64,000 bases of DNA. Source: Henckelia pumila. Lineage: Eukaryota > Streptophyta > Magnoliopsida > Lamiales > Gesneriaceae. The position numbers and the translations under genes were made by a program. Positions 1 to 55,290 of the stretch are shown piece by piece (positions within the stretch are counted from its first letter, which is position 1; every line of letters starts with the position of its first letter). The notes below the pieces were generated by a model that did not search any database, had not been told where the DNA came from, and saw nothing but the letters and a program-made list of their open reading frames with translations. The stretch is taken from positions 91,778,151 to 91,842,150 of the forward strand of contig NC_133120.1 in NCBI RefSeq assembly GCF_033568475.1, in the 5' to 3' direction.

Positions 1-477
1 TATTTTAAACCCTTGTTATGTTAGCATGTTGGGCCTCTAGGCTAACTACACTGGTATGGTGCAGGTGCGTACGTAGAGGAGGATGTGGTACCCACCGGTG
101 GCGAGGACATATGAGCGGACATGCAGTGACCCCGTGACCGTGATAGTCGTCTGAGTCTTTATGCATGTGTTGAATATTTTAGCATGTTATACATTTATTT
201 ATTTATATTCAGTGGTTGACAGTATGGGATATTTTACTTAAATATTTTCAGTGCATGCAATTTTTATTTGTTTTTGCTTATGTCAATATTTTATTAAATG
301 ATTGACTCAGATATTCAATTTATTAAAGGTTGCATTTTTATTTAGTTTATTATTTTTAAGTCTATTTATTCTGTGCATATATGTATGGTCATGTATGTAC
401 ATATTTTTACTTAGTAGGTATATAAAAAAAAAAAATTTCCGCATATTTATTTATATTAGAGAGTTAGGGGCGTTTCA
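1..477 (+). repeat. 5' LTR of element A (right-hand part only)
   Basis: Nearly identical to 7381-7855. It ends in TTTCA, immediately before the primer-binding site, so the CA terminus is at 477. The start of this LTR lies outside the window. Confidence 0.95.
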
Positions 478-479
478 GT

Positions 480-491
480 TGGTATCAGAGC
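480..491 (+). other. Primer-binding site of element A
   Basis: TGGTATCAGAGC, the complement of the 3' end of initiator methionine tRNA used by most plant LTR retrotransposons, lies two bases after the LTR end. Confidence 0.9.
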
Positions 492-649
492 ACGGTTCTT
501 GGAGAGGTCATTACTGCTATGCGAGCTCAGAAATCCACGCTACCGGTCTGTAAGTTTTAAGTGTTTATAGCATGATTTACTTTTAAAAAATTAAGTTAGC
601 ATTAATGTTAAAACACTTAGTTATGCATGGCGATTTACGTAAAGAAATA

Positions 650-1700: not shown

Positions 1701-1931
1701 TCTTACCTCTAGTATTTTATAATTTCTTCCTTTGGTTAAAAATTTCGTTTTCTGTGGAATTGTTGTTATTTGGATTATCTATTTTCATGTTAGAATAAGA
1801 AGAATGTTTTACTTGTGATTAGAATTAAGGGTTTTAGCGACTCTTTGGGGAAAGTTTAGTAGTGGTATGAAATTGTTGGGATTCTTCTGCGTGCAGGGAG
1901 AATTCTAGTTGGAGGCAACTCCACGTTTGCG

Positions 1932-4900: not shown

Positions 4901-5270
4901 ATTTGGTCGGAGAGGCAAGCTTAATCCGAGATATATAGGGTCATTCGAGATCTTGGAGAGAGTTGGCACGTTGGCCTACCATTTAGCTCTACAACCAGGG
5001 CTAGCGGCAGTGCACAATGTATTCCATGTATCCATGCTTCGGAGATACATCTCGAACCCGTCACATGTGTTGGATTTTGAGCCTCTTCAGTTGACACCGG
5101 AGTTAGCATTTGAGGAGAGGCCTATACGGATCTTGGCTAGGGAGGAGCGCAGATTGAGGACACGGGTTATACCGATGGTCAGAGTCCAGTGGCTGAATCA
5201 CTCGGAGGAGGAAGCTACTTGGGAGACCGAAGCAGATATGAGAACTCGCTACCCGGAGTTGTTCGGGTAA
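1932..5270 (+). pseudogene. pol region of element A (protease, RT, RNase H, integrase, chromodomain)
   Basis: Domains in order: aspartic protease (LDSGATHSF, near 1935), reverse transcriptase with the FIDDIL active-site box (near 2945), RNase H (VYTDAS, near 3380), zinc-binding integrase N-terminus (near 4030-4150) and integrase core (SDRDPRF, near 4410), then a chromodomain-like C-terminus ending in TWE...YPELF (near 5215-5268). Integrase following RNase H places it in Ty3/gypsy rather than Ty1/copia. Fossil copy with few disruptions. Confidence 0.92.
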
Positions 5271-5301
5271 GTACTTTAATTTCGAGGACGAAATCCAATT
5301 T

Positions 5302-5314
5302 AAGGGGGGGAGAA
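5302..5314 (+). other. Polypurine tract of element A
   Basis: A run of purines containing seven G lies directly before the TG that opens the 3' LTR. This is the expected site for plus-strand priming. Confidence 0.85.
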
Positions 5315-5315
5315 T

Positions 5316-7855
5316 TGTAACACCCGGTATTTTTAAATACGTAAATTCGCATGCATAATTAGGAAATTTATTTATTTAAAATTTTAGATTTATGGGTTAA
5401 ATAATTATGTGAAATTTTTTGTGCATGTTCTAAGTTATTTTTAAGCATTTAACCCATAATTAGTGATTTTCACGATTTATGGAAATTAATTGTTTTTGAT
5501 CGCGTAGACGGGACCGTGGACGGACGAGATGACAACTTTCTATCCAAATTATTTTATGAGTCTTTTTAGAGCCCAAAAATATTATTTTGAGTTTTATTTC
5601 CTCAATATTTTTAGTATTTAATTTTATATAATTTTAGGATTCTGTTTTTATTCAAAATAAGCCAAAATAATGACTTTTTAGTATTTTTAAAATTCTCTTA
5701 ATTAATATTTCGGGATTTTAATTTTAGTTATCAGATTTTACTTCTTATTTAGAGTTTTTAAGTTATATATTTTATATTTAAAAATCCCTATTAATATTTT
5801 ATTATCCTAAAAACCTATTTTTAAAATTTAAAACCTTACCCTAAACCTACCCAACCCTCACGCCTCCAAGCCCTCAGCCGACATCTCCCCCTCTCCTTCA
5901 TATTCTTCATCGATCATAAATCTCCAAGGCTCCATAGCCGATTTTTCTTCGAAGTTTCAAGGTTGCTCGTCGTCCCGTCGTCCCGGATTCGTTCTACACG
6001 CTCCTACCTCTTCTTTTATCGGTGCAAGGCATGTTTCCTTTTGTTTTATTGTACTATATCAGGGTTCATGTGTGTGTGTGTGTGTGTGTGTGTGTATACA
6101 TCAGTTTATTTAAGGACTTTCAGAAAATAATCGAAATTGGTTTGATGTATGCGCTTTATTCATGTTTTGTGGAATCATGCTCACGATTTTAAGCCATGGG
6201 TGCGTCTAACTGCTGGCCAAGGATTCCTAGGTGGTGTGAGGGTGGTCGGAACTCGAGTGGCTCGAGTGGTTCGAGCCAAAAGAGCCCAGGAAGCAAGCTA
6301 GGTCGATCGGGTTCCAGGAGTGCGCAGGTTTAGGGTTTTGGAGAAGGAGGTTCGGTGATGGGGGTCCAGGCTGCATGGGGCTGGGGGCTGGTACAGGTTA
6401 GGTCCGCCCAGACGTGGGCTACGTCTGGGCTGCGGCGCTCTAGCCAGGGCGGCCGGAGCAGGCCGGCAGCAGCCAAGGAGTGGTTGCTGCTCACGGCCAC
6501 AGCCGAGACGGGAATAGGGCGACGGGTCCTAGGGTTTCAGGTGGGTTCCGGGTCGGGTTAGTGGTCCGGGTCAAGTCCGTGGGTCACGGGTTAAGTTAGT
6601 TGGGTCCGGGTCCGGGTTAAGTTAATTGGGCTCGGGTATTTTTAATTTTAAGTTAATTATTAAATTTAAGTATTTTATTGGGCTAATTAGATTAATTAAA
6701 TTAATGGGCTACATTTAAGTTTGTTAATGGGCTTTAATTAATTAAGTGGGCTTGGAATAATTAATTATTGGGCTTAAGTATGTTAATGGGCCAGTCTCAG
6801 TGATAGTGGGCCAGAATTTAAGAAAATGGGCCTGAGTGTTAGGACCAGCAGTTCAGTACAAACCATGAGAAATTGCATGTGTCCTAAATATATATTTAAT
6901 TATTTTATGCATGAATGTTATTTTAGTATTTATATGTTAGTATAAAAATTAAATTAAATATATATGAAGGACACACATTTTATTTAAGTACATGCATTCA
7001 TGAAATAATTTTTATGCATGATTTAATGTTTAAAGTTGAGCAAAAGAAAAATAATTTTTATGTTGGAAGTTGAAGTAGTGTGACAATTTGAGGGGGATTC
7101 GTCCCCATATGTGAACTATTGAAGGACAGTTTACTGCCAATTTAAGAGGTGATTCGTCACCGCCACGTACGTTGGTTTCCATGCTGATCAGTATTTAATG
7201 TATGATTTAAGGTTACACTATGGATACAACCATGCGATGTTAGAAAATAATTTGCTCAACAATGTTTATGTATTATGTATGATTATGATATTTAAGTTAA
7301 TTTAAGTTATGTTATGTCATGATATTTTTAAGCATGCTCATTCATGTATATGAATGTATTAGTATTAAAGTGATTTAAATTATTTTAAATCCTTGTTATG
7401 TTAGCATGTTGGGCCTCTAGGCTCACTACACTGGTATGGTGCAGGTGAGTACGTAGAGGAGGATGTGGTACCCACCGGCGGCGAGGACATATGAGCGGAC
7501 ATGCAGTGACCCCGTGACCGTGATAGTCGTCTGAGTCTTTATGCATGTGTTGAATATTTTAGCATGTTATACATTTATTTATTTATATTCAGTGGTTGAC
7601 AGTATGGGATATTTTACTTAAATATTTTCAGTGCATGCAATTTTTATTTGTTTTTGCTTATGTCAATATTTTATTAAATGATTGACTCAGATATTCAATT
7701 TATTAAAGGTTACATTTTTATTTAGTTTATTATTTTTAAGTCTATTTATTCTGTGCATATATGTATGGGCATGTATGTACATATTTTTACTTAGTAGGTA
7801 TATAAAAAAAAAATTTCCGCATATTTATTTGTATTAGAGAGTTAGGGGCGTTTCA
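5316..7855 (+). repeat. 3' LTR of element A, 2540 bp
   Basis: Starts TGTAACACCCGG after the polypurine tract and ends in TTTCA. Its last 475 bp match the window start. It contains a (TG)13 microsatellite and a more GC-rich block around 6180-6620. It is followed by CAGTG, which also sits at the matching place in the intact 3' LTR of element B (13736-13740), so CAGTG is the predicted 5-bp target duplication; the left copy is out of view. Confidence 0.93.
6069..6094 (+). repeat. (TG)13 microsatellite inside the 3' LTR of element A
   Basis: An uninterrupted TG dinucleotide run. The matching part of the 5' LTR is outside the window, so it cannot be compared. Confidence 0.9.
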
Positions 7856-8078
7856 CAGTGGTTGGTCAGCTGGAGCTTCGCCTAGGTTTTATTCTGTTGT
7901 TATTGGATTGATACAACTATTCGATTTGGTTGTATTATATTTGGGTATTTACAGATTCCTTTACTTGGGATTGTATAATGTCTATGGTTTCCGCAGCTTA
8001 ATTCTGATTATTGTTTTGATTAAGTTAATTGCATGCCTAAGTTCTGTTTAGTAGGTGATCCGAGTAAGGGTCACTACA
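7856..8078 (+). repeat. 5' LTR of element B (last 223 bp)
   Basis: Aligns end to end with 13736-13958 and ends in CACTACA just before the primer-binding site. The upstream part was displaced by the insertion of element A. Confidence 0.95.
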
Positions 8079-8082
8079 TTTA

Positions 8083-8094
8083 TGGTATCAGAGC
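8083..8094 (+). other. Primer-binding site of element B
   Basis: TGGTATCAGAGC (initiator methionine tRNA type), four bases after the LTR end. Confidence 0.9.
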
Positions 8095-8154
8095 ATGCAA
8101 AGTATTCTTGGGATTTAGATTCTCCATAAGATAACCGTTAGGTTAATTTTGTAG

Positions 8155-9137
8155 ATGGCAGATCGTGATGACCAGAGTTCTCATGGCAGTATTGGTGGGC
8201 GTTGGGGTGATGCCGACCGGGAGCCTCGTCGGGAACGCCGCCATCGTCATCGAGATGAGGACCGTTTCAGTGTACGTCGATTCTTGCAGATGGGGCCTAA
8301 GCCCTTGGGCGGAGGCGAGTCTTCGGAAGAGGCGGAGAACTGGTTAGACCGCATGGAGACGACTTTTCGAACGTTTCACTGCACCGAGGACCAGAAGATG
8401 GAGACACTGGGTTATCTTCTGGATGGACGTGCGCGTAGGTGGTGGAGGTTTACTTCTGCACCTTTTGTTGCGGCGAGAGGAGTGGCCACTGGGCCGAATT
8501 CCGTACAGCTTTCCACAAGCTATATTTTCCTCCTGCACTCCGACAGACGAAGGCAGGTGAGCTTCTGAGCTTGCGGCAGGGAGCTTTGTCTATTGATGAG
8601 TACCAGCAGAAGTTCTTTGATCTGTTAGCCTATTGCCCGGAGATTGCCGACAGCTCCGAGATGAAGTATAATATGTTCCTTCAGGGCCTTAACCCTGAGA
8701 TCCATGACCATGTGGCGGTTGGTGACGACATGTCCTACAAGGGTTTGGTGAGCCGTTGTCACCAGGCGGAGGACAGCATTCGACTGAACAGGTCTTTCTC
8801 TCAGTCGAGACCTGCTAGTTCTTTGGGTTCCCGTGCCCAATCTTTCAAGAAGTCTGGATCTACTTCTTCTTCCTCTGGCTCTGCTGGTGTTGTCCGTTTT
8901 GGAAAGAAGGACAAGTGTGATCACTGTGGGAAGAACCATCCATCCGACAAGTGCCGTAAAGCTTCTGGAGCTTGTTTTTGTTACGGTGAGATGGGTCATA
9001 TCCGAAGGGATTGTCCACTATCTGGGGGAGGCGCTTCTGGTTCTGGTTCAGGATCTGGTTCTCAGGCCACCGTTCAGCAGAGGTCGCAGGGACAGCCTGC
9101 TGGGAGTTCTCATTTGAGGCCACAAGCTTCTGGCTAG
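8155..9137 (+). pseudogene. gag region of element B (fossil)
   Basis: Gag-like coding remains with an arginine-rich start, the 'EEAENWLDRME' capsid segment, a WW capsid motif and a CCHC zinc knuckle near 8960-9020 followed by a serine/glycine-rich tail. Broken fossil. Confidence 0.85.
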
Positions 9138-12100
9138 GTGTTTGCCCTGAGACATGATCAGGCAGTGGAGGAGAATGAGAAAGTCATCGCAGGTACATTT
9201 CTGCTTTATGGTATACCTGATCTTGTACTTATTGACACTGGTGCATCTCATTCCTTCATTTCTGCACGTTTTGTTAAGAGGCATAAGTTACCATGCATTG
9301 CACTAGACGTAGTGATGACTGTTTTTACTCCGACGGGCCAATCTGCTTTGGCTAAGCGTCTAGTTATGGGTTGCCCTTTAGAGTTCAAGGGAAACACTCT
9401 GTTAGCGAATCTCATGGTTCTTGCGATGGATGACTTCGATTGTATTCTGGGGATAGACATGCTGACTACCTATCGAGCTTCAGTGGACTGCTATCAGAGA
9501 TTAGTACGCTTTCATCCGGAAGGGAGTGAGAGCTGGTTTTTCTATGGTAAGGGAGAGCGACCCCCGATGCCACTGGTATCTGCTTTAAGAGTCTATCGAG
9601 CTCTAGAGTCTGGCGGGGAAGGTTACCTTATCTATGCAGTTGATTTGTCCGCTGAGAGCGTTGGGATAGAGAGCATTCCGGTCGTGGATAAATTTCCTGA
9701 TGAGATTCCGGGTTTTCCTCCTGTTAGGGAAGTCGAGTTTGGCATAGAGTTGATGCCGGGTACTTTGCCTATTTCTCGAGCACCGTATCGTCTGGCTCCG
9801 TCAGAGATGCGTGAGTTGAAAAATCAGCTACAGGATCTTTTGGACAAGGGGTACATTCATCCTAGTGTATCTCCTTGGGGAGCTCCTGTTCTTTTTATAA
9901 AGAAGAAGGATGGGTCTATGCGGCTATGCATTGACTATCGTCAGTTGAACCGAGTTACTGTGAAGAACAAGTATCCTTTGCCTCGTATTGATGACTTGTT
10001 TGATCAGCTGCAGGGAACTTCAGTTTACTCCAAGATTGACTTGAGATCTGGGTATCATCAGTTGAGAGTCTGAGATCAAGACGTAGCCCAGACTGCATTC
10101 CGTACTCGCTATGGGCATTACGAGTTTCTAGTGATGCCATTTGGTTTGACTAATGCGCCGGCTATATTCATGGACCTGATGAACCATGTCTTCAGGGAGT
10201 ATTTGGACAAGTTTGTCGTGGTCTTCATTGACGACATCTTGGTGTATTCGCGTAATACGGAAGAGCATGTTTCTCACTTGCGGTTGGTACTGCAGACTTT
10301 TCGGGATGAGCAGTTGTACGCCAAGCTTAGAAAGTGTGAGTTTTAAATGGATCGAGTGGTCTTTCTTGGCCATATCATATCCAGGAAGGGGATTTCTGTT
10401 GATCCAAGCAAGATTGAGGCGGTGCTTAATTGGTCGCGACCGACGACGGTTGCTGAGATCCGTAGCTTTCTGGGTCTAGCAGGATATTATCGTCGCTTCA
10501 TTTTGAATTTCTCTCAGCTAGCTCGACCTTTGACGCAGCTTACCCGCAAGGGTGTGGATTTCGAGTGGTCCTCCGAATGTGAGGAGAACTTCTGTGAGCT
10601 TCGACGACGGTTGACTTATGCGCCGGTGTTGGCATTACCGTCAGGATCTGGAGGGTATGTGGTGTACACTGATGCTTCTCTTCAGGGGTTAGGTTGTGTC
10701 CTGACTCAGAATGGGCATGTGATTGCATACGCTTCTAGACAGCTGAAGCTTCACGAGGACAACTACCCAGTCCATGATTTGGAATTGGCAGCCATTGTGT
10801 TCGCTTTGAAGTTCTGGCCTCATTATCTGTATGGCGAGAAATTTGAGATCTTCACCGACCATAAGAGTCTCAATTATTTGTTCACTCAGGCAGAGCTGAA
10901 CATGAGGCAGAGACGTTGGATGGACTTGCTTAAGGACTATGATTGCGAGATTAAGTACCATCCGGGAGCTGCTAATCTCACCGATGATGCATTGAGTCGC
11001 AAGGTGCGACTATCCGCACTTCAGTCTTGTTCGATGTCTAGTGCGATCAGTGACTGTTGTACTTCAGGATATACTTTCAAGCATAAGAAAGGTATGCAGA
11101 GTATCCAGATGTTTGCGATATTATCTGAGCCAGCTTTGTATTCACGGATTCGAGATGCTCAGATGTCTGATTCGAAAAACCAGCATTTAGCTCGTCTAGC
11201 TAACGAGGGTAGCTCGTCTGGATTTCATTATCAGTCAGATGGTTTTCTGTGTTTGTCTGGTAGGCTTGTGATTCCGCAGGATGTAGAGTTGCGAGAGGAG
11301 ATTTTGTCTCAGGTGCATCGCACTAAGTTGAGTATTCATCCTGGGAGCAACAAGATGTACAATGATCTACGTACTCGTTTCTGGTGGAAGGGAATGAAAC
11401 GCAGTGTTTATCAGTTTGTTTTGAGATGTTTGGTGTGTCAACAGGTCAAGGCAGAGCACCGACGACCTGGAGGATTACTTCACAGTCTGCCTATTCCTGA
11501 ATGGAAATGGGAGTTTATCACAATAGACTTTGTGACCCATTTGCCGGTATCCCCGAGGAACTGTGATGCTATCTGGGTTGTGGTGGACCGACTCACCAAG
11601 TCAGCGCATTTCATTTCCTATAGCCGGGAGTACAATGTGGATCGTATGGCTCGGTTGTACATTCAGGAGATCGTTCGACTTCATGGAGTGCCTGTGAGCA
11701 TTGTCAGCGATCGGGACCCCAGGTTTACTTCTAGATTCTGGGGGAATGTTCAGCGTGCGATGGGTACTACTCTCAGTTTGAGTACTGCCTATCATCCGGA
11801 GACTGATGGTCAGTCAGAGCGCACTATCCGTACTTTGGAGGATATTCTTAGAGCGTGCGTCATGGATTTTGACTCAGCCTGGCAGGATCATTTGTCATTG
11901 ATCGAGTTCGCGTACAACAACAGCTATCATACTAGCATTGGGATGGCACCTTTTGAGGCGTTGTACGGACGATGTTATCGTACTCCACTTTTCTGGGAAG
12001 AAGTGGGGGAGAGACAGGCTGAGGGGCCAGAGTTAATCCAGCAAGCTACAGACATTGTTGATCAGATCAAGAAACGGATTAAAATTGCACAAGATCGTCA

Positions 12101-12560
12101 GGCCAGCTATGCTAACACTAAGCGTAGGCCTTTGCAATTCGATGTCGGGGAGAGGGTGTTTTTGAGAGTGTTACCTTTCTGCAGGATTCTCAGATTTGGC
12201 CTTAAGGGCAAGTTGTCTCTCAGATTTATCGGTCCGTTTGAGATCTTGTAAAGCATTGGCGATTTGTCTTATCGTCTGGCTTTACCACCGTATCTGTCCA
12301 GTATTCACGACGTGTTCCACGTATCTCTGTTGCGATGGTATGTGGCGGATGAGTCCCATATTCTGCAGCCATCCAAAGTTAAAGTAGATAAGGATTTGAC
12401 CTATGTTGAGAAACCTATTCGTATCCTGGATCATAAGGATAAGGTCTTGCGAAACAAAGTCATTCATTTGGTTTTAGTTCAGTGGCAGCGCCGAGGCACT
12501 TAAAAAGCTACTTGGGAGCTTGAGAACAGGATACGTGAAGACCATCCTGAGTTGTTTTGA
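9138..12560 (+). pseudogene. pol region of element B (protease, RT, RNase H, integrase, chromodomain)
   Basis: Protease (IDTGASHSF, near 9230), reverse transcriptase with FIDDIL (near 10230), RNase H (VYTDAS, near 10665), integrase zinc finger and core (SDRDPRF, near 11708) and a chromodomain-like end (near 12480-12560). It is clearly related to element A's pol but belongs to a different lineage of copies. Broken, with several disruptions. Confidence 0.9.
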
Positions 12561-12683
12561 TTTCATTCTTAAGTTGTATTCAGTTGCAAACTCTGTAAAC
12601 GTTTGATTTGAATAAAGAATGTTTATGTACCTTGTGTTACATTCAGTACTTAAGATCTGTTTCGAGGACGAAACATCTTAAGT

Positions 12684-12692
12684 GGGGGAGAA
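12684..12692 (+). other. Polypurine tract of element B
   Basis: GGGGGAGAA immediately before the TG that opens the 3' LTR. Confidence 0.85.
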
Positions 12693-13958
12693 TGTAGTAG
12701 CCCGTACCCGAAATCAGTGATTAAGGAATTAATCAACGCTAATTAAACAAATTGGGTATCGAACATATCGGAAGCTCCGATGAGCGATCGGAAGCTCCGA
12801 TCGAATTACGTCAGGCATGACGTATGGCAGGATCGGAAGCTCCGATCACCCTATCCGAAGTCAACCAGTGATATTTTGACATGTGGTAGATAACGATGTT
12901 CGGAAGCTCCGATGGCAGGATCGGACGTTCCGATCGAGGATCGGAGGTTCCGATCATGGTCTATAAATAAAAGGCCGAGGCTTCATTCTGATTTGCCAAT
13001 TCAGAGATTTCCCTCTCCATTCTAGTCTTATTTGCTTAGTTCTAGTATTTTTAGGCTTGATCCGGGGGCCGGCAAGGCGTTCGGTAGTCGCAGCGGAGTT
13101 GTGCCCAAGTTTTGGAGGCATCGACATCAAAGGGCTAACGATAGACGAAGGTATAGCTTTTGCTTCCTAAAAATATTTAGGAGTATGCAATAGCTTAGTT
13201 AAGGCTTTTAGAGCACTTTAATGATAGTAGTATCATTTGGCAGTGTAGAGCAGACTATAGGCGTGGATCTAGAATTGGTAGAGCTTGCACTGATTTGAGG
13301 TACGAAAGTACTGTTCGAGATATCCTGACTGAGTATGCATGTATTATGTGACTGCATGGTTTATATGTCATTGATTTATGCTGCATTCATTTGCATACTG
13401 AGCTATCTCCATCGAAATGTCTATTAGTAGGGTTGTACCCTATCCTGTTAGTGGATGGACTTCCATGGCTTTGGGTCCGGTAAATCCATTGGTATTATGG
13501 TATGGGAGCCACCTCCTGAAGCGACGGCACAGCGTGCTACATACCAGGGCCCGGTCTGTCTTTGTATCTGATCCTTGACCTCGAGTTATAGGGAGTTCAC
13601 TTTGCATGCATGTATACTCATACTCTCGTACTGAGCGTTTTATGCTCACGTCTCGTACTTTGTGTTTCTGGACACCCTATTTTCATGGGACAGGTTTGCG
13701 ATTGGACGAGGCGGGTGGATCCAAGAGGGGCTAGGCAGTGGTTGGTCAGCTGGAGATTCGCCTAGGTTTTATTCTGTTGTTATTGGATTTATACAACTAT
13801 TCGATTTGGTTGTATTATATTTGGGTATTTACAGATTCCTTTACTTGGGATTGTATAATGTCTATGGTTTCCGCAGCTTAATTCTGATTACTATTTTGAT
13901 TAAGTTAATTGCATGCCTAAGTTTTGTTTAGTAGGTGATCCGAGTAAGGGTCACTACA
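12693..13958 (+). repeat. 3' LTR of element B, 1266 bp
   Basis: Starts TGTAGTAGCCCG after the polypurine tract and ends CACTACA. It holds a cluster of short inverted repeats (12770-12957) followed by a TATA box (12962-12970). The right flank begins TATCA, the predicted 5-bp target duplication; the left copy is outside the window. Confidence 0.93.
12765..12970 (+). promoter_or_regulatory. Inverted-repeat cluster and TATA box in the element B LTR
   Basis: About six copies of a 15-bp unit with arms ATCGGA and TCCGAT around a 3-bp centre, plus a mirrored pair of TGACG-type half sites (ACGTCAGGCATGACGT, 12808-12823). All lie in the 200 bp before CTATAAATA. The position fits the promoter/enhancer part (U3) of an LTR. 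Confidence 0.6.
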
Positions 13959-15946: not shown

Positions 15947-16582
15947 ATCACAATCAATGTTTTCATAACCGGACCGGTAATTGAACCGATCTACCTTAAA
16001 AAAACGGTCCAACTGGTTCAACCGTTTTAACCGGACGGTCGGACCGGAAAACCGTTTATATTATATAATATAATATAATTAATAATATCTTTTAAATTTT
16101 ATAAATCTAAAAGATGTATATAAATAAACAAAAATATATTTATCATAGTTTAAAAAATAAATAACTATATAAATATATTCAAAATATTAATTATAGTTAT
16201 ATATACTATATTTTTATAAATAAATTAATTAATTAAAAAAATATAATAATAGAAAAATAATATTTTTAACGAAGTACAAATTTCAAATAATCATGTGTAT
16301 ATATATATAATAAAATATTAAATTAAGATTTTAAAATTAAAAAAAACAATTTTTAAAAAGAATTAAAAAAAATTCGAAAACCGATTCAACCGGTTTTTTG
16401 GCCGGTTCTTGGGACCGGTTCTTAGCCGGTTCTTGGCCGGTTCGACCGGTTTTGACCGGTTCTGAGCGGTTGAACCGTAAAAACGATTTTTAGGGGTATT
16501 TCGGACCGGACCAGCGACCGGTTCCCGGTCGAACCGGTCGAACCGGCCGGTCCGGTTCGGTTTTTAAAACACTGATCACAAT
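15947..16582. mobile_element. hAT-type MITE, 620 bp, 8-bp target-site duplication
   Basis: A non-autonomous DNA element at 15955-16574. The left end is CAATGTTTTCATAACCGG and the right end reads, in reverse complement, CAGTGTTTTAAAAACCG; both are hAT-type CA(G/A)TG termini. Perfect 8-bp direct repeats ATCACAAT lie at 15947-15954 and 16575-16582. Both subterminal regions are packed with ACCGGTT/GACCGGTT motifs in alternating orientation, and the middle is AT-rich with no coding capacity. Confidence 0.88.
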
Positions 16583-36827: not shown

Positions 36828-39800
36828 TTATTGCTGATCATCAAGCTCGTACATTGGCAACGCAAAGGAATCATAGTCCCCGAAAATAATGTCATGCTCC
36901 TCAGTGAACCTGCCCGAGTCTTGAAAATCGAACGAGGTTTGTATGTCATCAGGGAAGCAACTTCTCGGCTGGACTTCGCGTTCAGAGAGGCTCAAAGGGC
37001 TGTCACAGCTCGCCGTTTGCTCCAACATTTCTTTGAACTTGGAGGATTGTTGCAATATTCCTAGGGCCGACGTCATGGCAGTGGTACTGGAGGAGCCACC
37101 GAGCTGATACGGTGGCGTTTCGGTGGTGGTCTCAGCCGAGCTCGAGCTTTGGTCGTGGTAGTTGAGGTAGTCCAATCCTGGTTCTTGACTAGGGTTGTGG
37201 ACCTTGTTGATGTCAACTTTGTCATTAGGGTTTGAATTAGTGTCGTTTGCGATAGGTTGCGACAAGTTGATATAACGACTTAGGTCGAAATTAGTGACAG
37301 CATTGAGCCCTCGATATTCTATTGCCGCCATGTCGTATGCAGTGGCAGCTTCTTCTTGTGTAGCTGTGCACAAAAATCAAAATATAATTAAGAACCAAAA
37401 TGGAAATATTATCCAAGGGTGATTTTGGAAACTCGGTTGCTTTAAATCCATAAATATGTATAATAAATTCAAGAATTCAAATTGCATGAAAAATTTGGTT
37501 GGCAAGTGTTGAAAGTTTAATTATATTGCATGTACAGTAGCAGATCTAGCAAGCTGTTGAGGGTTGGTGATCTACACAATATAATTAGCCAACCATATAT
37601 GTTTGCTTTCAGCTTACTAACTATTTGCCATTATGTTCTTTGACCCTATATGCCTTTCATTTTCCCTATAATATTTATATAATATCTTAACTATATATTA
37701 TTCCGTATTAGATGATCATCTGCTACTATAACCTAATGCTTGTTGTTAACATGTGTTAACGTTGGTTCAATATTTGATTAGTTACTCCCCAAAAACTATA
37801 ATAACTAATAGAAATATACAAATTTCAGTATAAGTCCGATATATCTTTTTCAAAAAAATTTATAAGTCGTTTTTCTGACATGTGCAACGTGTGTATGACT
37901 AAAATCAGAAAATGTACTAATGAAATTGAAATTTGATAATATAGAAGATTAAACCGGAAAAAATATTTTTTAAGAAAATAAAAGTAGATAAAAGAAATGC
38001 ATTAATTGGAGTATAAATATAAAGCTTTTAAAGTAAAAGATAATAGAAACTAACATAAATGCACCCAATTGTCATGATTAAGAGTACCAAAAATTATTCG
38101 AAAGACTCTTCTCATCTAACGACATGTGGCACATGTATTGAAGCTTGTTTAATGCAATTTAAGAGTCATTTTATTGTTAGCGATTGGGATATTGTTTATG
38201 TTTGGTTGTTAGTTTGTAGGTAAAACAACAAAGATTTTGGTTTATTCTTCAGGAAGTATTCTTAGCAGTGTATTTTTTTTTATTAGGGTTACATATCTGT
38301 GGATGGTCCTTTTCAAGTTCATCAGATCCATGATTTAATATAATAATGATAATGAAATAATAAATTTAAAAGCTAGCTCGAGCATTATAACTAAGCAAAT
38401 ATATAGTATATTTATATTATGGCGTACCATATGTCCCAAGGTAAAGATATTTGTTGCCGAAGACTCTTCCTATGCGAGCTTCCCATCTTCCATTGTGATG
38501 ATGTCTAAGCAAAAATAAAAAATAAAATAAAATTTAATGCTCGAAAATCTTGAAACCATGGAACACATCGTAGCAATTACGCCTACTATTTTCCCATATC
38601 TAGAGCCAATTTTTAGTCATAATTGTCATTAGTAGGGATGGACAAGAAATCGATCGGGTACTGCAGATTTTGTAGGGTAATTTGCATTCACCTCCCCTAC
38701 ATTTTTTGCTTTTGACATTCACGTACCACCTCGTTTCCATGCTATAATTTTTACACTTGATAAGAGAGGTGAGTGTCAAATGCATATAGTGTAGGGGATG
38801 TGAATACAAATGACGCAGATTTTATATACACAAGAGATTGCCTCTAAACTAGACATTTATCATTCAAAATTTAGAGATTAATATCATAAAGTTGGCAATA
38901 ATCGGCAAAAAATTTGAACCTTTGATGCGTGGGATCGTTAAATGCAATAAAATAAAAGGTCCGGCTTGGTAATAAGTGCTGTGAATTCAAATTTTGGTAT
39001 AGGACCCTATTGTATTTATGAAACACATCAAATTATTTTAGTTGGGAGCTAGATTGTGAACTTTTTCAAAGCCATTAATTATTTCCTTCTATGTGAGTCT
39101 TTGTCATATGTTTTGTCACGAATTGGGACATTCAGAAAAGATAAAAAAGGAGAGAAGTAGAAAATATTTGTGGAGGGTAAAAACGTTAAAAAAAATAAGA
39201 AAACAATATAATTTTTTGAATGAGATTAAATGAATTTCAATATATATAGACTACGTACCTTGCCACTCCTCTATACTTGGACACGCCTCTAGAAAACCCA
39301 CTGCTTTTCCTGCCATTGAAGTTCATGAAAAAAAATTTCAAGATTCGTTGATCAGTAATTGATAACCTAAAATTTAACAAGAATTTTGACCAAAATGAAA
39401 TATTTGAATTTTAATATAAAATCTAATTAAAAATAAGGGCGAGGAATTAAGGGGCCCGGCAAAAATTAATTTTTAATGATTTCACATAAAATCGGATTTA
39501 TTAATTTATTTGACTCTTGCAACGAGTAGTATAACTTAATTGGGCACACAATACATATTGGTTCTGATTATTTTGTACCTTCTCAATGAACCAATATATT
39601 CTTCCTTTGATTGGCCTCCCATTTCCTTGAACTCTTGTAGATAAGTGGAAAGCTACAATCATAAAAATAACTCAAGCTTATTAAATAAATCGTTAAATTG
39701 TAACGAATTCGATCGATAATTATCGATAAAATATCAAAATTGTTTGGAGTTAGAAATTACTGGAAAATTGAGGATGGTGTCTTGTCCCCAATACTTCAAT

Positions 39801-40596
39801 GCAGCCAAGTCATATGCATGTGCAGCTGCTTCTTCGTCATCGTAGGCCCCTAAAAACACAATTTTAAAATCATAATATGAGATAAGATCCAGTGAAAAAA
39901 GCCAAATCGTGATCAAATCAACAAGCTTTTTCATCACTAAAAAAAAAAGTGTTTTTTTTAATTCCCATTTGTTTTAAATTTGTAAAGAAGGATTCTTTTT
40001 TAATTTTTTATTATTATTATTTGGCTTTTTGTTTGAATATATAATTAAAAGTTAAATGATGAAATTATGGTCAATATACTTACCAAGATACACTGCATTT
40101 TTGTAGGATCCCATCAACCACCATTGAAAAACCAATGCAAATTAACCAACAAAGAGCAAAAATGGTAAATCACATTAGCTAGTGATGCCATATTTTTTAT
40201 TTATTATGAATAAAAATAAAAAAAATTAAATTAAATTGAATTACATACCTTGCCTCCCTTTCTTGTTCTGTGATTCGTTCCAGCAATTCTTATCCCACAA
40301 ATGAGCTTCATATCGACCCGTCCACCGGTGTCTGAAATATTATTTCACCATCAATAATATATATATATATATTTTTTAATCATGAAATTAAACTCAGTAA
40401 TAAATCTGACAAATCCAACATGCATATATAATTAATGAATTAATTACCTGGTGACCCCTCGATAAACAGAGCTACGTTGCTGAGGAGACTCTCTGGGAAC
40501 ACTTTTACGTGTCCGTTTGGCCTTTGGAGAAGCCTTATTACTACTCTTGGCAGCAGTACTGTTTTTATTAAGGTTTTGCTTTGAGGTTTTCGCCAT
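36828..40596 (-). CDS. WRI4: AP2-like transcription factor, WRINKLED4-like, 355 aa
   Basis: Eight exons: 40448-40596, 40249-40331, 40084-40092, 39761-39849, 39579-39652, 39259-39309, 38428-38504, 36828-37363 (1068 nt). Two AP2 DNA-binding domains: about residues 43-110 ([20 protein letters not shown], then [20 protein letters not shown]) and 145-205 ([39 protein letters not shown]), joined by the WRI-type linker [18 protein letters not shown]. Exon 3 is the 9-nt microexon coding VYL that is typical of WRI genes. A basic N-terminus ([12 protein letters not shown]) fits a nuclear signal. The C-terminal FPDDIQT...FQDSG and EEHDIIF blocks match Arabidopsis WRI4 (At1g79700), which promotes fatty-acid supply for cuticular wax, rather than WRI1. 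Role by homology only. MULE-type MITE in intron 7. Confidence 0.92.
38663..38823. mobile_element. Mutator-type MITE, 143 bp, in intron 7 of the WRI4-like gene
   Basis: Element at 38672-38814, flanked by perfect 9-bp repeats GCAGATTTT (38663-38671 and 38815-38823), the target length of Mutator elements. Its 21-bp inverted arms (38681-38701 and 38790-38810) differ at 2 positions and contain ATTCACCTCCCCTACA. Confidence 0.75.
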
Positions 40597-43500
40597 GAAA
40601 GAGTAGTACTTCAGTGGAGGGGAAAGAATTAAGCCCCTCAAAAATCCACACGTAATTTTAAAAATGCAAGAAAAAAGAAGTGAAAGAAGAAGAAGAATAG
40701 AGTACGGGGTTTGATGAGATTTGTTAACCAAAAAAGAAGACTAATTCCTCCAATGAAAATGGAAACAAAGAGGGTTGTTTAATTTAATTTGTAGGCATTT
40801 AGCGGCCGTCTGAAAACGGCTGAGTTTTCTTTTCTTGTATGTTTTTGTCTCGATTTGATGTGATGTGGGCTTTTCGGGTTCTTCATTTATATATAATGCT
40901 TTTGGCCAATTAACCTTTTTCAGTTGGAGATTTAATTCGTAGCTGCAGTTTCTGCTCAATATCATATTTTAGTCAATCGCATTTTGCCCCCTTATTTCCT
41001 AAGCCAAAATATATAGGAGACATTAATTAATTAAACTAACTAGTAATTACTAATTATCCATGTGATCAAGAATGAGTTGGTAAACCCACAAATTATACTC
41101 AAATCGAGTGATTTTATATTTTTTTTCTTTAGGGTTGTGGTTTTTCTTTTTTTTACTATTCTTTGGGATCGAATCAATAATGTTACTCCGTTATTGAGAA
41201 AGATTTATGTCACTGTTGTTGGTGTATTAATTTGTGTCGGTTGGCTAAATAATCTGGGAGCTCTTTATATAAACAAGGGCAATCCTCACCTCTTGATCTA
41301 GCTTTTGAGGTGAGTTAGGTCCAAGTCAATTCTTAACAACTGCATGCGATAGAATATCAATTCGAAATTAGAATTGAGAAAGTTATAATTTATAAAGAGT
41401 TGGGATTCGCATAGTTAATTAAAACCAAATAATCTTGAAATTTGAAATTATACACATCTCGTTGTCATCAAAAGTCCATTTATAGGTGGGACAATTTGGG
41501 TAGTTACTGAGTGGCGCTGACATTGATTCATGATAAATGATATTACTACATGAAAGCTTTTGGCAGCCTAGCAAGATCTATTCATATATTTTATACTTTA
41601 TTTATCATTATAATTTATATCTCATGTAAGTTTTGAATCGCGTACGTGTTTATCGATCATATTTACGAACTGAAATATTTGGCTAACCATAGGATAATTT
41701 ATATATCAGAAGGTGGGATTTTTTAATCCTATTGAGAGAGTTTTATGGGATTTTTTTTTACATTTAAATGTGAAACTAGAACACATACTTATATGATTCT
41801 CAAAGAAAATGTGGATGATCGGATTCCAATCTTAATTATAGGAACCGATTTCATTTTTTTGACAAAGTTCCTTTTCAATTATAAGCTATTTTGACCGGTT
41901 CGCTGGATACATACATTAATAACTAACAGATACGACCTGGTTTAATGGAATCATTTTGGAAAATATATTTTTATTCGTCCACATTAAATTAAAATAAATA
42001 AATACGTTTTTGGAAATTCTATTTGTTGGACGTATAATTAAATTAAATTGTTTTAATTTTGAAATTTAATTTGATTGGATACCAAAATAAACCAGATAAA
42101 TAATTTAATATATATTTTATTGTTGCATCTGTAATGGAGACAATTTAATCGGACAAGATTAACCATTTCATATTTCAGCCAATATTAAAATATAAAATCT
42201 ATGTTACATATAATACTGTTGAGCCCACAACACTAATTGATATTATCTGACCATATGCTTAACTATAAAACTCTTAGAACAATTTTTTAATTAATAAATT
42301 AAAACAATACAGTCGGCTTGATGCAAAACTAATTAATATTCAAAAATGACATGCATGCTCAGGTAACATTGTAATGGGGTTATAATACTATTTAGAGTTA
42401 ATTGCTTACATTAAATCTTTCTCTTGATGACATTATCATCAAGAAATTAAATGAGAGGTTTAGAATTCAATAGAAGAAGAAGGCCGCCAGAAGAATTTCG
42501 AAGTACTGCCACTTGTGAAACTATTATAAGTTGAGATTAAATATCTGGTAATTAAGATACTCATACAATGACGTCATATAGTGAAAATATAAATCCTAGG
42601 CGCTTTGAAACGATATATAGCGCCTTGTCTTTTTCCCTTCTCCAAGATTTTGAGAACCCAGCTAGGTAGTGTTATCCCTAGCTAGTTAATTATCAACAAG
42701 TATAGTACTTGTCCATATCAACTAGAATACGGTGATTTTTGGGAGTTGTAAAATATATGTCGTTAAATATTAAGTTTTTGATAGTTGTATATATGAATTT
42801 AAACAATTAATCTTCTCGATCGTCTTAGCTAGATTTTCGGGTGGAGTTTCAATGTTAACGACATATATACGATGATGAGCATTAATAATTTTTCTCCCTT
42901 TTTAAGTTTTATATTTGATATCTTAGTAAAATAATATCGTTGCTCCAAATTTACATGTATTTGTGTGTGTTTTTTTTTTTTTTGGTAAAGGGCATGTATT
43001 AATTAGTATTTAGTACATTACATATACTACTTGATTTATTTAAAAAAAACTATAAATCATTTTTTATTAAAATTTATTTGATTGGAGAGAATATTAGAGG
43101 GTGTTTGAATTTTTGACGTCAAGTCCAGCCACGCCGCCCACGCGCAGTGACCTAGCCGATCGCGTAGTAATTGCAGAGAACATATTACATACGTGTAGAA
43201 AATACGTGTATATATATATATATATATAATAAAATTAAAAAAAAATATGAAAAAATATGGAGAAAAAAAAAACTACACCGTTCAGTCAAATTATTTTCCT
43301 ACGAAAACGGCCAGATTGGTTAAAATTATACTTATTTAGTTTGTTTAATTAGCATCCACAAAACAAATGAAGTTGACCGCGTTGGTAGAAGAATTCAAAC
43401 TTCAGAAAGGAAGAAGGAAGTTGAATCTTATATGGTCTTACAATCAACGTGCATACAGGTCGTGTATAATTTTCCCTATCATGCATTAGTTATTTGAAAA

Positions 43501-43782
43501 TTGCCTGGTATGGTTTATCAATATTTTATTTTATATAAATTATTATTGCCCTAGACTATAAAAAGACACCAACTATATATATGATATATCTATTCAAATT
43601 CGTATATGAAATTATGAATAATGATCTCTAATTAAAAGTCGTGGGGATTATTTAATTATATGACGAATGTACATTTTCCGATAGACCGTGTGTTAAAAAA
43701 GAATGATAAAAATAACAACGTTCAATTCAAACCATTGCACAATTATTTCCTTTGAAAACGAACACAACCATTAAATCAAAGT
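40597..43782. other. Long spacer upstream of the WRI4-like gene and the small-peptide gene
   Basis: About 3.2 kb separates the divergent start codons. Mostly AT-rich, with a (TA)10 tract at 43209-43228 and a more GC-balanced patch at 43116-43170. A single TTGACC W-box core lies near 43373. No other gene is supported; open frames here are short and lack splice or homology support. Confidence 0.55.
43209..43228. repeat. (TA)10 microsatellite
   Basis: An uninterrupted TA run about 610 bp upstream of the small-peptide start codon. Confidence 0.9.
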
Positions 43783-43790
43783 CTATATAT
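43783..43790 (+). promoter_or_regulatory. TATA box of the small-peptide gene
   Basis: CTATATATAA 54 bp before the ATG at 43837. Spacing fits a plant core promoter with a short 5' UTR. Confidence 0.5.
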
Positions 43791-43836
43791 AATTGAGCCA
43801 AGCGATCTTGCATATTACGATTTACGCATACACACA

Positions 43837-44681
43837 ATGGAGGCCTTGAAGAAGATTTTGCTCTTATTTTTAATATTTCTTGCTTATTCAAGAGTTGAAG
43901 GGAGATCGTTCATCTTCCCAGGTATGCAATATATTAATATAAGGTTATTTTATGTGTCAACTAATGTATTAAATTAAGAGTAATTGCTTGGTTTTATCCC
44001 GGATTCTAAAGAAGTTTAGTTCAAATTTCAAGCTTTTCAAGTCGCGTAAAAAAAATAAACAATTGTATAATCGAGTTTAAGCATTAAGTGTGGCTTAAGC
44101 ATGCAAGATTTTTAGAACTTTGATTCTAGCGCATAGCTAGGTAGCCACATACCCAAAAAAATTAAAATATTTATATTATGGGGAGTGGAATTCATTTTAA
44201 TCCCTATGCCATTTATATAAAAAAAAATTCCGGGAAAAAAAAAGGTAGAGAAGGAGAAGGTTGATATGTAGTGCCTACTGATCCCATGATCTCCAAATTC
44301 CACTCGTTCGAATTGATCTTAAATTTGAGTTAATTTTAAAAGTTTTTGCAATTTTAACCATCCCTTCATAGGTTTCTTTTTCTTTTTTTTTTTTTTACTT
44401 AATGAAAGTTTGTATAATTTCTCAACACCACGAACTCCCCACAAACGATCATAATCGTTATATTATTAGTACTATATAAATTTTTTTTATGTAAGCTATG
44501 TGATTGTTATAATATGAATTCGAATTATATTGTATTGCTTAAATATTAAATAAATAATGCAGATTATGTCCTCGTGGCCAATAGTATTGCAAGGATGCCG
44601 GATCCATCGCCAGTCGCCACCGCCGCCATACTTAAGCATCGCGCCAACCCCGTAAAGGAGTGTTTTGTGTGGGCTTTGTGA
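43837..44681 (+). CDS. Small secreted-peptide precursor candidate, 67 aa, family not recognised
   Basis: Two exons, 43837-43921 and 44563-44681 (204 nt, GT-AG intron of 641 bp). The first exon codes an almost ideal signal peptide (MEALKKILLLFLIFLAYSRV, cleavage probably near EG|RS). The rest is a mature segment of about 45 residues: RSFIFPDYVLVANSIARM, then PDPSPVATAAILKHRANP, then VKECFVWAL, with one cysteine. The exon joint preserves frame and falls just after the signal peptide, as in several plant hormone precursors. A TATA box 54 bp upstream and AATAAA about 30 bp after the stop (44712) support a real gene. The proline-rich MPDPSP and dibasic-like KHR resemble processed signalling peptides, but I match it to no named family (CLE, CEP, IDA, PSK, RGF, CIF and PIP considered). 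It could also be a lineage-specific or non-functional transcript. Confidence 0.6.
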
Positions 44682-44711
44682 ATTTGCATTTCAATTTATT
44701 ATGGATTCAAT

Positions 44712-44717
44712 AATAAA
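44712..44717 (+). terminator. Polyadenylation signal after the small-peptide gene
   Basis: AATAAA 31 bases after the stop codon. It supports transcription in this direction. Confidence 0.4.
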
Positions 44718-46024
44718 TTTAAAATGTATAGATTTCAAATCTTGGAATTTATTAATCTTTTTTTGAGCTTTTGAACTTCAGTCTTAAACTTTGTATTTAC
44801 GATGGATGTGGCATTTCAAGTATTGACTAATGGAGCATTTGATTCACGAAGTGACGAAATTTAAAGATTCCAGTAAATAAAAATTTGAAAGAGATTATTT
44901 TTGTTGAACAATAGTTTAACAAATGGGATTTAAATCTACTATATGGTTTTGTAAATTTTAGAAAATTGAGTTGAGCACATTTATATTGAAAATAGAATAT
45001 TTAAATCAGTTGAAGCTTTCCATCAAAACCGGACCTAAAACCCTCGGATAAAAATTCTGGTATCTTAATGGGGATTCTATCAATAGATCAAGAGATTGTC
45101 TTAATCTAAGCGTGCCATACACATGAAGCGATATATTTAGATCAACATTTTCACTATATCTTAATATAATCCAACTATTTTAATATAATATCCTCAAAAT
45201 AAAAATATACAAGACTCATGATCGACTGAATATATTATATTAATATATATGATCATGCAACTCCAGATATAGCATAAAATCAACGGAAACATCGAACTAT
45301 ACACTCTAAAATTTTCTTTGCAGTCCTCCATAATTCATTGAACTTGTTAATTTTTACATCAATATATTTATATACGCTCTTATCGTACCCAAATCTGAGC
45401 GTAAAACACACATTTCCCTGGTTGATAACATTAAAAACAATTTTTTTATGCTAACTCACAAATACTGTCATCAATGGATGAAAATATCCCTGAAGCGTTG
45501 TCTCATTTAATGTTACAACTCCAATGTTATGCATATCGTGAATCTGAAGAAGTTCATAGGATGTAAAATAGAATCGTTGGCTTTCCATAAGTCATGAAAG
45601 AGCACCAATTCTAGAATAAAATAAAGTAAAATTTGGTTTTACACACACAAACCATATTATGATAAGGAACCCGCTACTGCACCAACAGTATATAAGAAAT
45701 AAAGAGGTTGCTTTAGAAGGGCAACAGTGTCCAAAAAATGGAAAACAAAATAACTTTTTTTTTTGAAACCGGAAAACAAAATAACTTGTGCCTGAGTTTA
45801 TGAAGCATGATTTAAGGGATTGGAATGAATGATTCTTTGGTTTAAACATTGCACAACATAGATGCCACATTCAGGTAGCTGATACGAATTAGTTGCAGAG
45901 CAAGGCTCGAAACTAAAACAAACATACAAAATTACATGTTTAAAATGTATCCAGCCAAATTTGAACCAAATAAAACTGAAAAACACTTAGCAAATGCAAA
46001 CACAGTTCATGACTTGATCATATC
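44718..46024. other. Spacer between the small-peptide gene and PBG1
   Basis: AT-rich, no coding sequence supported. The right part (about 45560-46024) is less AT-rich and probably contains the 3' UTR of the minus-strand proteasome gene. Confidence 0.5.
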
Positions 46025-48878
46025 CTACCATGAACCCTCGGCACCGACAGTTGGATTCTGGAAAGCAGAGAAATTCCAATAAGTCTTCAACGAATATGGG
46101 GGAAAAGTTGTAACTCCTTCCTCTGTGATCTTTAATATCTGTGGAGTAATATCAATTGTCACTGAAAGTATAGTGGCTAAAATCTCGAACAACCAAAAAA
46201 GTGTAATCCATGCATTCCAATCCAGCAATAGTTAATGTGGGGATAGATTCAGCTATTTGGGACTGGATGACCATTATACATACAGTAAATAAAAGGACAA
46301 CAGGTATGCACAAAATAACCGACAACTCTTTCCATTGAAATGAAATTTGCTCAGAATATATAGATTAGCATACACATCAGGGCACTACAAAATATGGGTT
46401 CTTCTATGATCCACCGGGTGAATTTCACCCGGTGGATCTGGGCCATTCATTGGCCCGGCCCCACACACAGATTGTGTGGGGCCCGGGCCAATGAATGGTG
46501 GATGCTGCACCGGGTGAATGGCCCACAAAATATAGACCTCCAGTCCTCCACAAGTATTTATCATGCAAGATCCACATATGATTGCGCAAGTTAGACAAAC
46601 CATCTACAAAATTCTGATAAATAACACGATCTCGACAATAGTACTTGGTGCTTCATTTCAAGCAACAAGTACTAGCCCCCAGAAAGAAAAAAATAAAGGA
46701 AGGTCAAGACTTGAGAGAGTATCAAAATATATTAAATAACTAATTTAAGTAGTTTCTGGAATATTTCACGCCAGATAAATCGAACCTGAATCTTGTTAAC
46801 AGCTGATCGGTCACGATACAGTAGCACACGCATACATTTCTCCAGTAACTTTACGCCCTCTTCGAAAGTCAAATTCTCGTGCCATTCATCACGCAAAAGA
46901 GGGCGTGCTAGGTGATTACCAAATCCAGTAGCAACATGGTTGTCCTCATAATGTACACCTATCATACTGACCTGAATGCATTCAAAAGATAATGAACCTG
47001 TGTGCTCGACATGACAAAAAGAAAAACTACCGTTAAAAATATCAAAAAAAGAAAAACTACCGTTCCAAGATACTTCTGCCCGTTTTTAACACCGCCAAGC
47101 ACAAGCGAATTCCACAATGGATTGAACTTATTACGGCGATTGTACATAACTCTGGTTAGATAATTATGCACCTCTTTAGGGCCCAAGGAGTTCCCATCAT
47201 CCCACATGTTATCATACAAGCTGCATTTGCAGATCAAGCAAAAGAAAGAGTTAATTAATGTACCTTAACACACTAATAATTGTCTTGGAAAAAATCAGCC
47301 ACGTGAAATATCATACAGACTTACATAAGCTCGTCAAGATAGCGCATTATCTCCTGAAAATCGCTGATCTCACCACTAGCTCCTATAATAGAATGTTTCC
47401 CAACTGGCTTCAATCGCTCCACGCCTTTGTACCGGAGTGTAGATCCGTAGGAACCTATTGATGAAGGTGTTAGGAGCCTAGCATAACTAAATCATAATAG
47501 AAATGAATACGAGGCATCAATGTGTTAAAAAATCATGCATTCAACAAACTAGCGAAGCTATTTCGAGATCAAAAGGCAATGTCCCCATGAAATCAGTACA
47601 TAGTGAACACAGCATTTGCAACTAATACTAGTACTAAGAAGTCCATTAGTAATAAATGGCAACTGTCTGAGATCAAAATTTTCAGACACAACGGTGTCCC
47701 AGTCAATCAATCCTCACCACCAGGTTAAAGAGAAGTAGCAATCATGCAGAAAACAAATATTAATAACAAATAATAATCCATGCTCATACATTTACAAACA
47801 ATGCATACCCTTCAACAACAGCTAGCAAGAAAAAATGTCAGTCGCTCAGTCTTAAATCTCGTGTAGGAACACTGCAACCCAAAATGAGGACAGTGGTGAA
47901 AAATTGCAACAGTATTAGTTTTCAGAGCAAATATGCAACAGGAGTTCGAATGTTCAATGCAACAGATGGCAGACCTAAAAGAAATACTCAAAGAAGGATA
48001 GAACTAGGTTACATGTCAAGTATACATCTACAAAGATACTTGATTGAAGGCTTGAGCCATTGCTCATTTTGACATCCAACATTTAAACCTTAGGCATCTC
48101 TCATTCAAGTATTAGAACCCTAGTAAATACTGTAGGGAAGAATTTTAGCTTGGAAATCTCTACAAAAAAAGGCAGACGTAGGTAAAATTAGCACCAAGCT
48201 TCACCTAGTAACTCATTAACTACTGCCTACTGGACACATATTTTTTAGATGTTGATAGAATATAAGAAAAGATGCAGATTCAGGATCCAACCTCCCATGT
48301 CAGCGGCCAAAAGAATACCATCTTTGTACTTGAGACCAACCACTGAAGTCCCCGTCACATATGGATACCTACGCCAAAAAACCCGATTTAGACACATATA
48401 TGTGAAAACCGATCACTCTTATTTTATCGTTTACAGTAAAAAAAAATTTAGTAAACAATTAATTTCTGAGCTAAATTCGAGCATATAACTCTATACTCTG
48501 GGCCTCTAGCAGCAGAGAGCTAGGATTCCATTTGCTTTTCAAAAGACCTTATCTTGCTATCATTGTATCATCCATAAAATATTAAAGACAACAGACAAGA
48601 AAATTTTATACTATATAGTTCAAATTCAAAAACCAAAGAACTAAGATAATAAGAAACTTAATGAATTCCAGAAATTTTTTTACCAAGAACCTTGGGAAAA
48701 CGAAGTTAAAAACGATAAAAGTTCGACCAAACAGCACTGGCAGCCAAAACCCTAGATTCTTAACCATTAATCAAAATGAACGGATCACAGGCTCAAAAGT
48801 AAATCCGATGTATGAAAAGATGCAGAAATCATACAGTGTTCTCTGAGAATCACTTTCTGAACCGACCAAACTGTTCAT
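46025..48878 (-). CDS. PBG1: 20S proteasome subunit beta type-7 (PBG1, PSMB4/Pre4 orthologue), 236 aa
   Basis: Six exons: 48835-48878, 48292-48368, 47325-47454, 47061-47220, 46786-46971, 46025-46138 (711 nt). A structural, non-proteolytic beta subunit of the 20S core in nucleus and cytosol. Diagnostic segments: YPYVTGTSVV, ADMGGSYGSTLRYKGVERLK, IIGASGEISDFQEIMRYLDE, DNMWDDGNSLGPKEVHNYL, NHLARPLLRDEWHEN, RVLLYRDRSAVNK and the C-terminal NPTVGAEGSW. The N-terminus MNSLVGSESDSQRTL matches the SQRT-YPYVTG pattern of plant orthologues, which fixes the start at 48878. A short 5' UTR exon ending at GTGAGT (near 48999) seems to be joined to CAG|TTGG near 48903. That leader exon contains an ATG that is not the coding start. 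Intron 5 contains strong foldbacks, and the exon 4 donor is duplicated. Confidence 0.95.
46405..46515. repeat. Two stacked hairpins in intron 5 of PBG1 (foldback or MITE)
   Basis: The first hairpin has 15-bp perfect arms GATCCACCGGGTGAA at 46408-46422 and 46424-46438 with a 1-nt centre. The second has arms of about 24 bp, 46443-46466 and 46474-46498, with one bulge. The motif CACCGGGTGAAT recurs at 46509-46520. GC content is far above the surrounding intron. No target duplication found. Confidence 0.7.
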
Positions 48879-54130: not shown

Positions 54131-55290
54131 ATGGCCGCTACTGTGGGTTGTGGTTCTACTTCTAATTCGTGGGGTCAATTGAAGGATTCTAATTCATCGC
54201 TGAGAAATTTGAGGAATAGTAATAAGAATAATCACAAGAAAAAATCCCGGGTTTCGTGCGTTTATTCCTCGCCTGCTGTCGGCGATCCGTACAAGACGCT
54301 GCGAATCGACCCCGGCGCTTCTGAATCGGAGGTTAAGAAGGCATTCAGGCGCCTCGCTCTTCAGGTGATTCGTTTGATCTTTTGACTTTGACTCCACATA
54401 AAAATGGCTTATGTTTTTTTTTTGGCTTACTGAAGATTCGGTTTTTGGGAGAAGATCTGTAGATGCTAATGCATTTTTTGATAGAAGTCAAGAATTGGGA
54501 ATTAAATTAGTGATTTTTTGAAAGGATTATCTTTTACAGCTTTGTTTGTTTTGGTTATTATTATTAAAATTAAATGCACTGATGACAGTAATGCTTTTAT
54601 TGGTGGAAAGCAAATTAAGTGAACTGAAATCTTTTTGTTCCAATTTACCTTTCAATTATCCGAAACAAAAATGGATTTCCATTTGCTAATATTCTAATCC
54701 ACTGGTGTTTTATATGATTGCAGTATCATCCCGATGTTTGCCGAGAAAACAACGCCGGAGTCCAGTTTCACCAGATTAACGAGGCATATGATGTCAGTAT
54801 TTTATCATCATCCAATAATGCCCTTTTTTATTTTTGTTATTTTTAGCTCACTTTTCATGGATTAGTATATATTTTAAACTATATATCAAAATACTAATGT
54901 GCGCATCTCGTGAGGCTAAATGGTATCAAAATAAATTAAAGTTTTGACCCGACGTGTGACATGACTTGAGTGGACCCTTCTTTTGTACAAATGATTGATT
55001 TCGATGGCATTTTGCTAGTGATATGATGTGATGTGTTTTCTTATTATTATTACAAGGAAATAATTGATCATAAGAAACGAAAATACAAAAACTGTGGCTG
55101 ACCCATTGATTAATGTTGTATTATGAAACAGGCTGTGATGAGAAATTTGAGAGAGCCAGAGGTGGAGACGTACGATTTGGAGGTGGACGAGGGGATGGTG
55201 GATCAAGAATGGGATCTGTGGGAAGAGTGGATGGGATGGGAAGGAGCTGGGATTCGGGACTATTCATCCCACATCAATCCTTACATCTGA
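54131..55290 (+). CDS. J8: Chloroplast DnaJ-type co-chaperone, J8-like, 153 aa
   Basis: Three exons: 54131-54364, 54724-54792, 55132-55290 (462 nt). Residues 1-45 are Ser/Asn/Lys-rich, few acids, like a plastid transit peptide ending near RVSCVYSS. The J domain (about 52-105) has [20 protein letters not shown], the HPD tripeptide at 80-82 that triggers Hsp70 ATPase, and INEAYD. The C-terminus [15 protein letters not shown] and NPY is the signature of the J8 class (Arabidopsis At1g80920), which works with stromal Hsp70 and affects Calvin-cycle enzyme stability. There is no G/F or zinc-finger region, so it is a type III J protein. The first in-frame ATG (MAATVG) gives a length close to J8 (about 163). 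Confidence 0.92.

Follow-up and report, generated by a model that had tools for sequence, protein, structure and literature searches.

Among the secreted peptides of plants, the cysteine-rich ones (defensins, EPF and others) carry four or more cysteines in their mature part. Mature sulfated peptides, GLV9 excepted, start with Asp-Tyr and are sulfated by TPST, as the sources cited here describe them (PMC11756074, PMC7913133, PMC11534595). The motif of one such group, PSY, is given as DYXXXX[AP]NXXHXP (PMC11641228, PMC7913133); it begins with Asp-Tyr and is placed in the second half of a precursor of 60–200 residues (PMC7913133). PROSCOOP genes are described as having two or three exons, with Arabidopsis precursors of 72–117 residues (PMC6382344), while CTNIP/SCREW peptides are reported to derive from a short signal-peptide precursor with two conserved C-terminal cysteines and a CTNIP motif (PMC9191895). 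A survey of tomato arrives at 1,050 putative small secreted peptides and places 557 in 38 known families; beyond these it reports 61,306 small frames that have features of secreted peptides, many of which, in its authors’ words, might be false (PMC10515272).

Here we describe a probably single-copy candidate of this kind in a window of 64,000 nucleotides (the whole stretch of DNA analysed) from Henckelia pumila. A small secreted-peptide gene appears to be the best reading of the locus. We consider it likely that the gene is real and codes for a secreted peptide outside the families tested, its expression and secretion being predictions. The candidate is ordinary in kind, since by the figures of the tomato survey about half of the 1,050 candidates also lie outside known families (PMC10515272). 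Like other small secreted peptides that plant surveys place outside families, it is a small protein with a signal-peptide-like start, and nothing so far distinguishes it from them. The coordinates of its features are collected in Table 1.

Table 1 Features of the candidate peptide gene and its flanks.
Feature	Position	Strand	Description
TATA-like site	43784..43792	+	sites at 43784 and 43786, about 50 bases 5′ of the ATG; weak
Exon 1	43837..43921	+	start codon, signal-peptide-like segment MEALKKILLLFLIFLAYSRVEG, then RSFIFP (translation, hydropathy rule); G+C 0.365
Intron	43922..44562	+	phase 1, GT...AG, 641 bases; G+C 0.276
Repeat fragment in intron	44285..44481	.	one matching place (78% identity) on each of contigs C2 and C3
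Exon 2	44563..44681	+	DYVLVANSIARMPDPSPVATAAILKHRANPVKECFVWAL and stop (translation); first base of the Asp codon in exon 1; G+C island 44568–44674
AATAAA, possible poly-A signal	44712..44717	+	31 bases 3′ of the stop; weak

The spliced frame is open and can be read directly from the sequence. An ATG is present at 43837 in a favourable context (A at −3, G at +4), and the stop codon of exon 2 ends at 44681. The donor (43921|43922, CCCAG|GTATGC) and the acceptor (44562|44563, AATGCAG|ATTATG) are GT-AG sites near consensus, which counts in favour of a gene. Of 30 combinations of splice positions tried near the donor and acceptor, the one bordered by GT...AG yields a protein of 67 residues, MEALKKILLLFLIFLAYSRVEGRSFIFPDYVLVANSIARMPDPSPVATAAILKHRANPVKECFVWAL, as the translation of exon 1 joined to exon 2, with the codon for Asp29 split by the intron. 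The open frame of exon 2 extends from 44550 to 44681 and is closed by a stop codon just 5′ of the acceptor; the peptide therefore requires splicing. The two-exon, 67-residue precursor put forward in an earlier note on this DNA is thus borne out, with all of its borders present and a phase 1 splice that gives the frame.

The case for a gene rests most firmly on a sharp island of high G+C that coincides with exon 2. The G+C content of this exon is 0.538; the intron and the 819 bases downstream each have 0.276, so that the composition is exon-shaped. A maximal-scoring-segment test that takes no account of reading frames, run over positions 43922–45900, places the best segment at 44568–44674, inside exon 2, 5 bases from the acceptor and 7 from the stop, and its score is reached by none of 2000 first-order Markov shuffles. 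From 14 kb on, the window contains 12 islands with G+C this high, the peptide exon included; several read as exons of neighbouring genes (AP2-type, 36895–37218; DnaJ, 54231–54398) and at least two as repeats (16390–16582 and 46366–46575). Exon 2 itself is unlike repeat DNA, as a DNA search of the genome, which passes over very common words, matched elsewhere only the intron fragment 44285–44481. That fragment is probably a dispersed element; its places on C2 and C3 lie within stretches of more than 2.5 kb that are 97% alike.

An island of other origin (a decayed gene, an antisense exon or a non-coding transcript) lying beside a T-rich ATG frame could mimic such a gene by chance, an explanation that we regard as unlikely. 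Its appeal is that signal-like starts do arise by chance and that no relative of the peptide was found in its own genome; the fit of the island to the exon, with its ends just inside the acceptor and the stop, argues the other way. We gauged the conjunction of features with two scans, whose rules were fixed after the candidate had been seen, so that none of the figures that follow is a clean probability. The strict scan covered 50 kb on both strands and called for A or G at −3, a signal-peptide-like start, AG|GT[AG], 50–120 residues and an exon 2 of at least 90 bases with G+C of at least 0.48; it returned one model, the candidate gene, whereas 20 third-order Markov shuffles yielded no model. 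A relaxed scan of the window gave 57 two-exon models with 25 distinct ends, a yield that suits the chance explanation, and six of these exceed the candidate in exon-2 G+C. The six map to 58.3–60.5 kb, 60.7–62.8 kb and 16.5–18.6 kb, and by our own reading, with 25 of the 57 models listed, they sit on other genes’ exons, their antisense or repeats, which speaks against a chance origin. Among the shuffles, one of 20 contained models at exon-2 G+C of at least 0.53 under the relaxed rules (two models). The conjunction of features is therefore beyond chance under the strict rules, and the relaxed scan is less exclusive.

An antisense frame of 64 codons (44496–44690) is open across all of exon 2, and its codon score is near that of the sense frame; this counts against the gene and in favour of a chance resemblance. 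For exon 2 the codon score is 11.89 in the true frame and 10.53 in the best antisense frame; exon 1 scores 3.25 in frame, below the 3.91 of another frame. Codon usage thus mildly favours the true frame of exon 2, leaves the strand unsettled and does not discriminate in exon 1.

The N-terminus of the precursor is signal-peptide-like by a hydropathy rule of our own (not SignalP), with KK followed by ILLLFLIFL and a possible cleavage after Gly22. Under the same rule, the real 50 kb contains one signal-like start and shuffled sequence an average of 1.9; such a start therefore carries no weight when taken alone. For the TATA box and poly-A signal reported in the earlier note, the motifs exist, and at the densities found in 38000–46000 (5.1 per kb for TATA-like sites and 3.0 per kb for AATAAA) they are too common to be informative and therefore lend the gene almost no support. 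We infer that the locus would be transcribed and the precursor secreted and cleaved.

The plant’s 885-Mb genome, in which the window lies on contig C1, was searched at the protein level using two queries, the precursor and exon 2 by itself. Both searches, which scored first-look candidates only (two for the precursor and one for exon 2), recovered the gene itself and no second copy at E up to 10. As a rough control, an AP2-type neighbour used as query found 15 places including itself, at identities down to 39% over long stretches, although the 39-residue exon-2 query is harder to match than this one. The proteasome and DnaJ neighbours found no second place in the genome when used as queries. 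The AP2-type neighbour, so labelled by eye (a Pfam scan of its exon returned nothing), has a paralogue on C3 that is 51% identical, and the 40 kb around that paralogue contains no credible copy of the peptide; the best two matches there, 11 residues long at E 0.14 and 26 residues long at E 0.52, continue or end, when read in context, in ways that the peptide does not. The failure to find a second copy, in the genome or in these 40 kb, counts against a functional signal gene. The precursor matches no Pfam family at E 10, which fits the reading favoured below, and has no significant match in the PDB, where two RNase HII entries (E 0.16 and 0.22, residues 7–45) were dismissed as chance likenesses. 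Rfam returned nothing at gathering scores over 43500–45000, and seven peptide words of six or seven residues each were not found in the literature searched. The lack of a family says nothing about conservation in relatives.

The earlier note had stated that the peptide fits no known plant peptide-hormone family, and this agrees with our finding that the precursor matches none of 14 plant hormone motifs. With SCOOP it shares a few-exon gene and a small precursor, as far as the source describes these (PMC6382344), but it has a cysteine, no second copy was found, and Ser-X-Ser is absent even as a loose pattern; an alignment to SCOOP12 is matched by 1019 of 3000 shuffles. The resemblance to CTNIP/SCREW, as described, lies in a short precursor with a signal-peptide-like start (PMC9191895), whereas the candidate has one cysteine rather than two and lacks the CTNIP pattern. 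Core motifs of CLE, CEP, IDA, PIP, RGF, CIF, PEP and systemin, and those of PSK, RALF and HypSys, all loosely written, likewise do not occur in it. When 12 hormone peptides were aligned with the precursor, the best was CLV3, with 248 of 3000 shuffles as good, a figure uncorrected for the 12 comparisons. Its single cysteine and the lack of a Pfam match also set the precursor apart from the cysteine-rich class.

We lean towards a functional two-exon gene that would encode a 67-residue secreted precursor, the source of a signal belonging to no known family. The signal peptide would be removed near Gly22 to leave about 45 residues, probably without a stable fold, with a calculated pI of 9.2 and one cysteine. 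Either this propeptide or a piece released from it by proteases of the apoplast would most likely act on a cell-surface receptor as a short linear signal, by analogy with other small plant peptides that are not cysteine-rich and act in this way. The signalling role and the receptor are guesses on our part, and the “new signalling or defence peptide” of the earlier note remains one. Exon 2 modelled alone from its single sequence gives a low-confidence helical model (mean pLDDT 60.7, pTM 0.23), which is compatible with a flexible peptide and no proof of it. Two arginines that could border cleavage sites are all that supports the mature segment proposed earlier (MPDPSP...RANP).

The gene might also be real and its product secreted and yet not be a signal, the product being instead an apoplastic or wall-associated peptide, or a precursor that stays in the membrane through a signal anchor that is not cleaved. 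We think this improbable. The size, signal-like start and few cysteines of the candidate resemble those of processed peptide precursors as described for other families (PMC6382344, PMC7913133), although the failure of every hormone motif tried fits a non-signal product, as do the 45 post-signal residues, which are fairly hydrophobic (GRAVY +0.36) and may, at low confidence, be helical. If the gene proved to be expressed, with conservation in relatives, the many plant secreted peptides that have no assignment would gain one more family, and there would be a ligand to try on orphan receptor kinases; for now the gene is one among many such plant candidates.

Exon 2 begins with Asp-Tyr (Asp29-Tyr30), like the mature sulfated peptides. 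As in PSY, there is a small precursor, here with a signal-peptide-like start, whose length falls within 60–200 residues, with Asp-Tyr at a plausible mature N-terminus. The two differ in that Ala-Asn here comes one residue early, Arg replaces His, and Asp-Tyr lies at residue 29 of 67, outside the second half. The full motif is absent from the precursor, and 1505 of 3000 shuffles align to PSY1 as well as it does, which puts the similarity at shuffle level. On these grounds of motif, position and similarity, we reject membership in PSY, and we assign the peptide to none of the other families either. It is very improbable that the peptide founds a lineage-restricted family of tyrosine-sulfated hormones with a receptor of its own and a mature part that starts at Asp29-Tyr30, where exon 2 starts. 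That the peptide belongs, in strongly diverged form, to a known tyrosine-sulfated family such as PSY, with the mature peptide again beginning at Asp29-Tyr30, is likewise very improbable: besides Asp-Tyr at the start of exon 2, this reading can call on an Ala-Asn pair one residue off the PSY spacing, a Pro at that spacing and a near-miss pattern found in 3.5e-5 of 200,000 shuffles, but that pattern was built to fit, and the absent motif, the early Asp-Tyr and the shuffle-level alignment all weigh against it.

Several other features were noted in the window and on C3. A compact G+C-rich nest of hairpins at 46408–46498, which lies between the peptide and proteasome genes and has 15-nt arms that are 100% and 20-nt arms that are 95% complementary, resembles a small inverted-repeat element. 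On C3, the 10 kb that precede and run into the AP2-type paralogue contain frames that appear by eye to be Copia-type, and the repeat at 15952–16571 has two copies on that contig (73% identity), about 34 kb apart, one on each side of the paralogue. At the start of the window, positions 1–13900 hold long reverse-transcriptase/integrase-like frames (for example 1863–4829, 988 codons), which by eye belong to Ty3-type retrotransposons.
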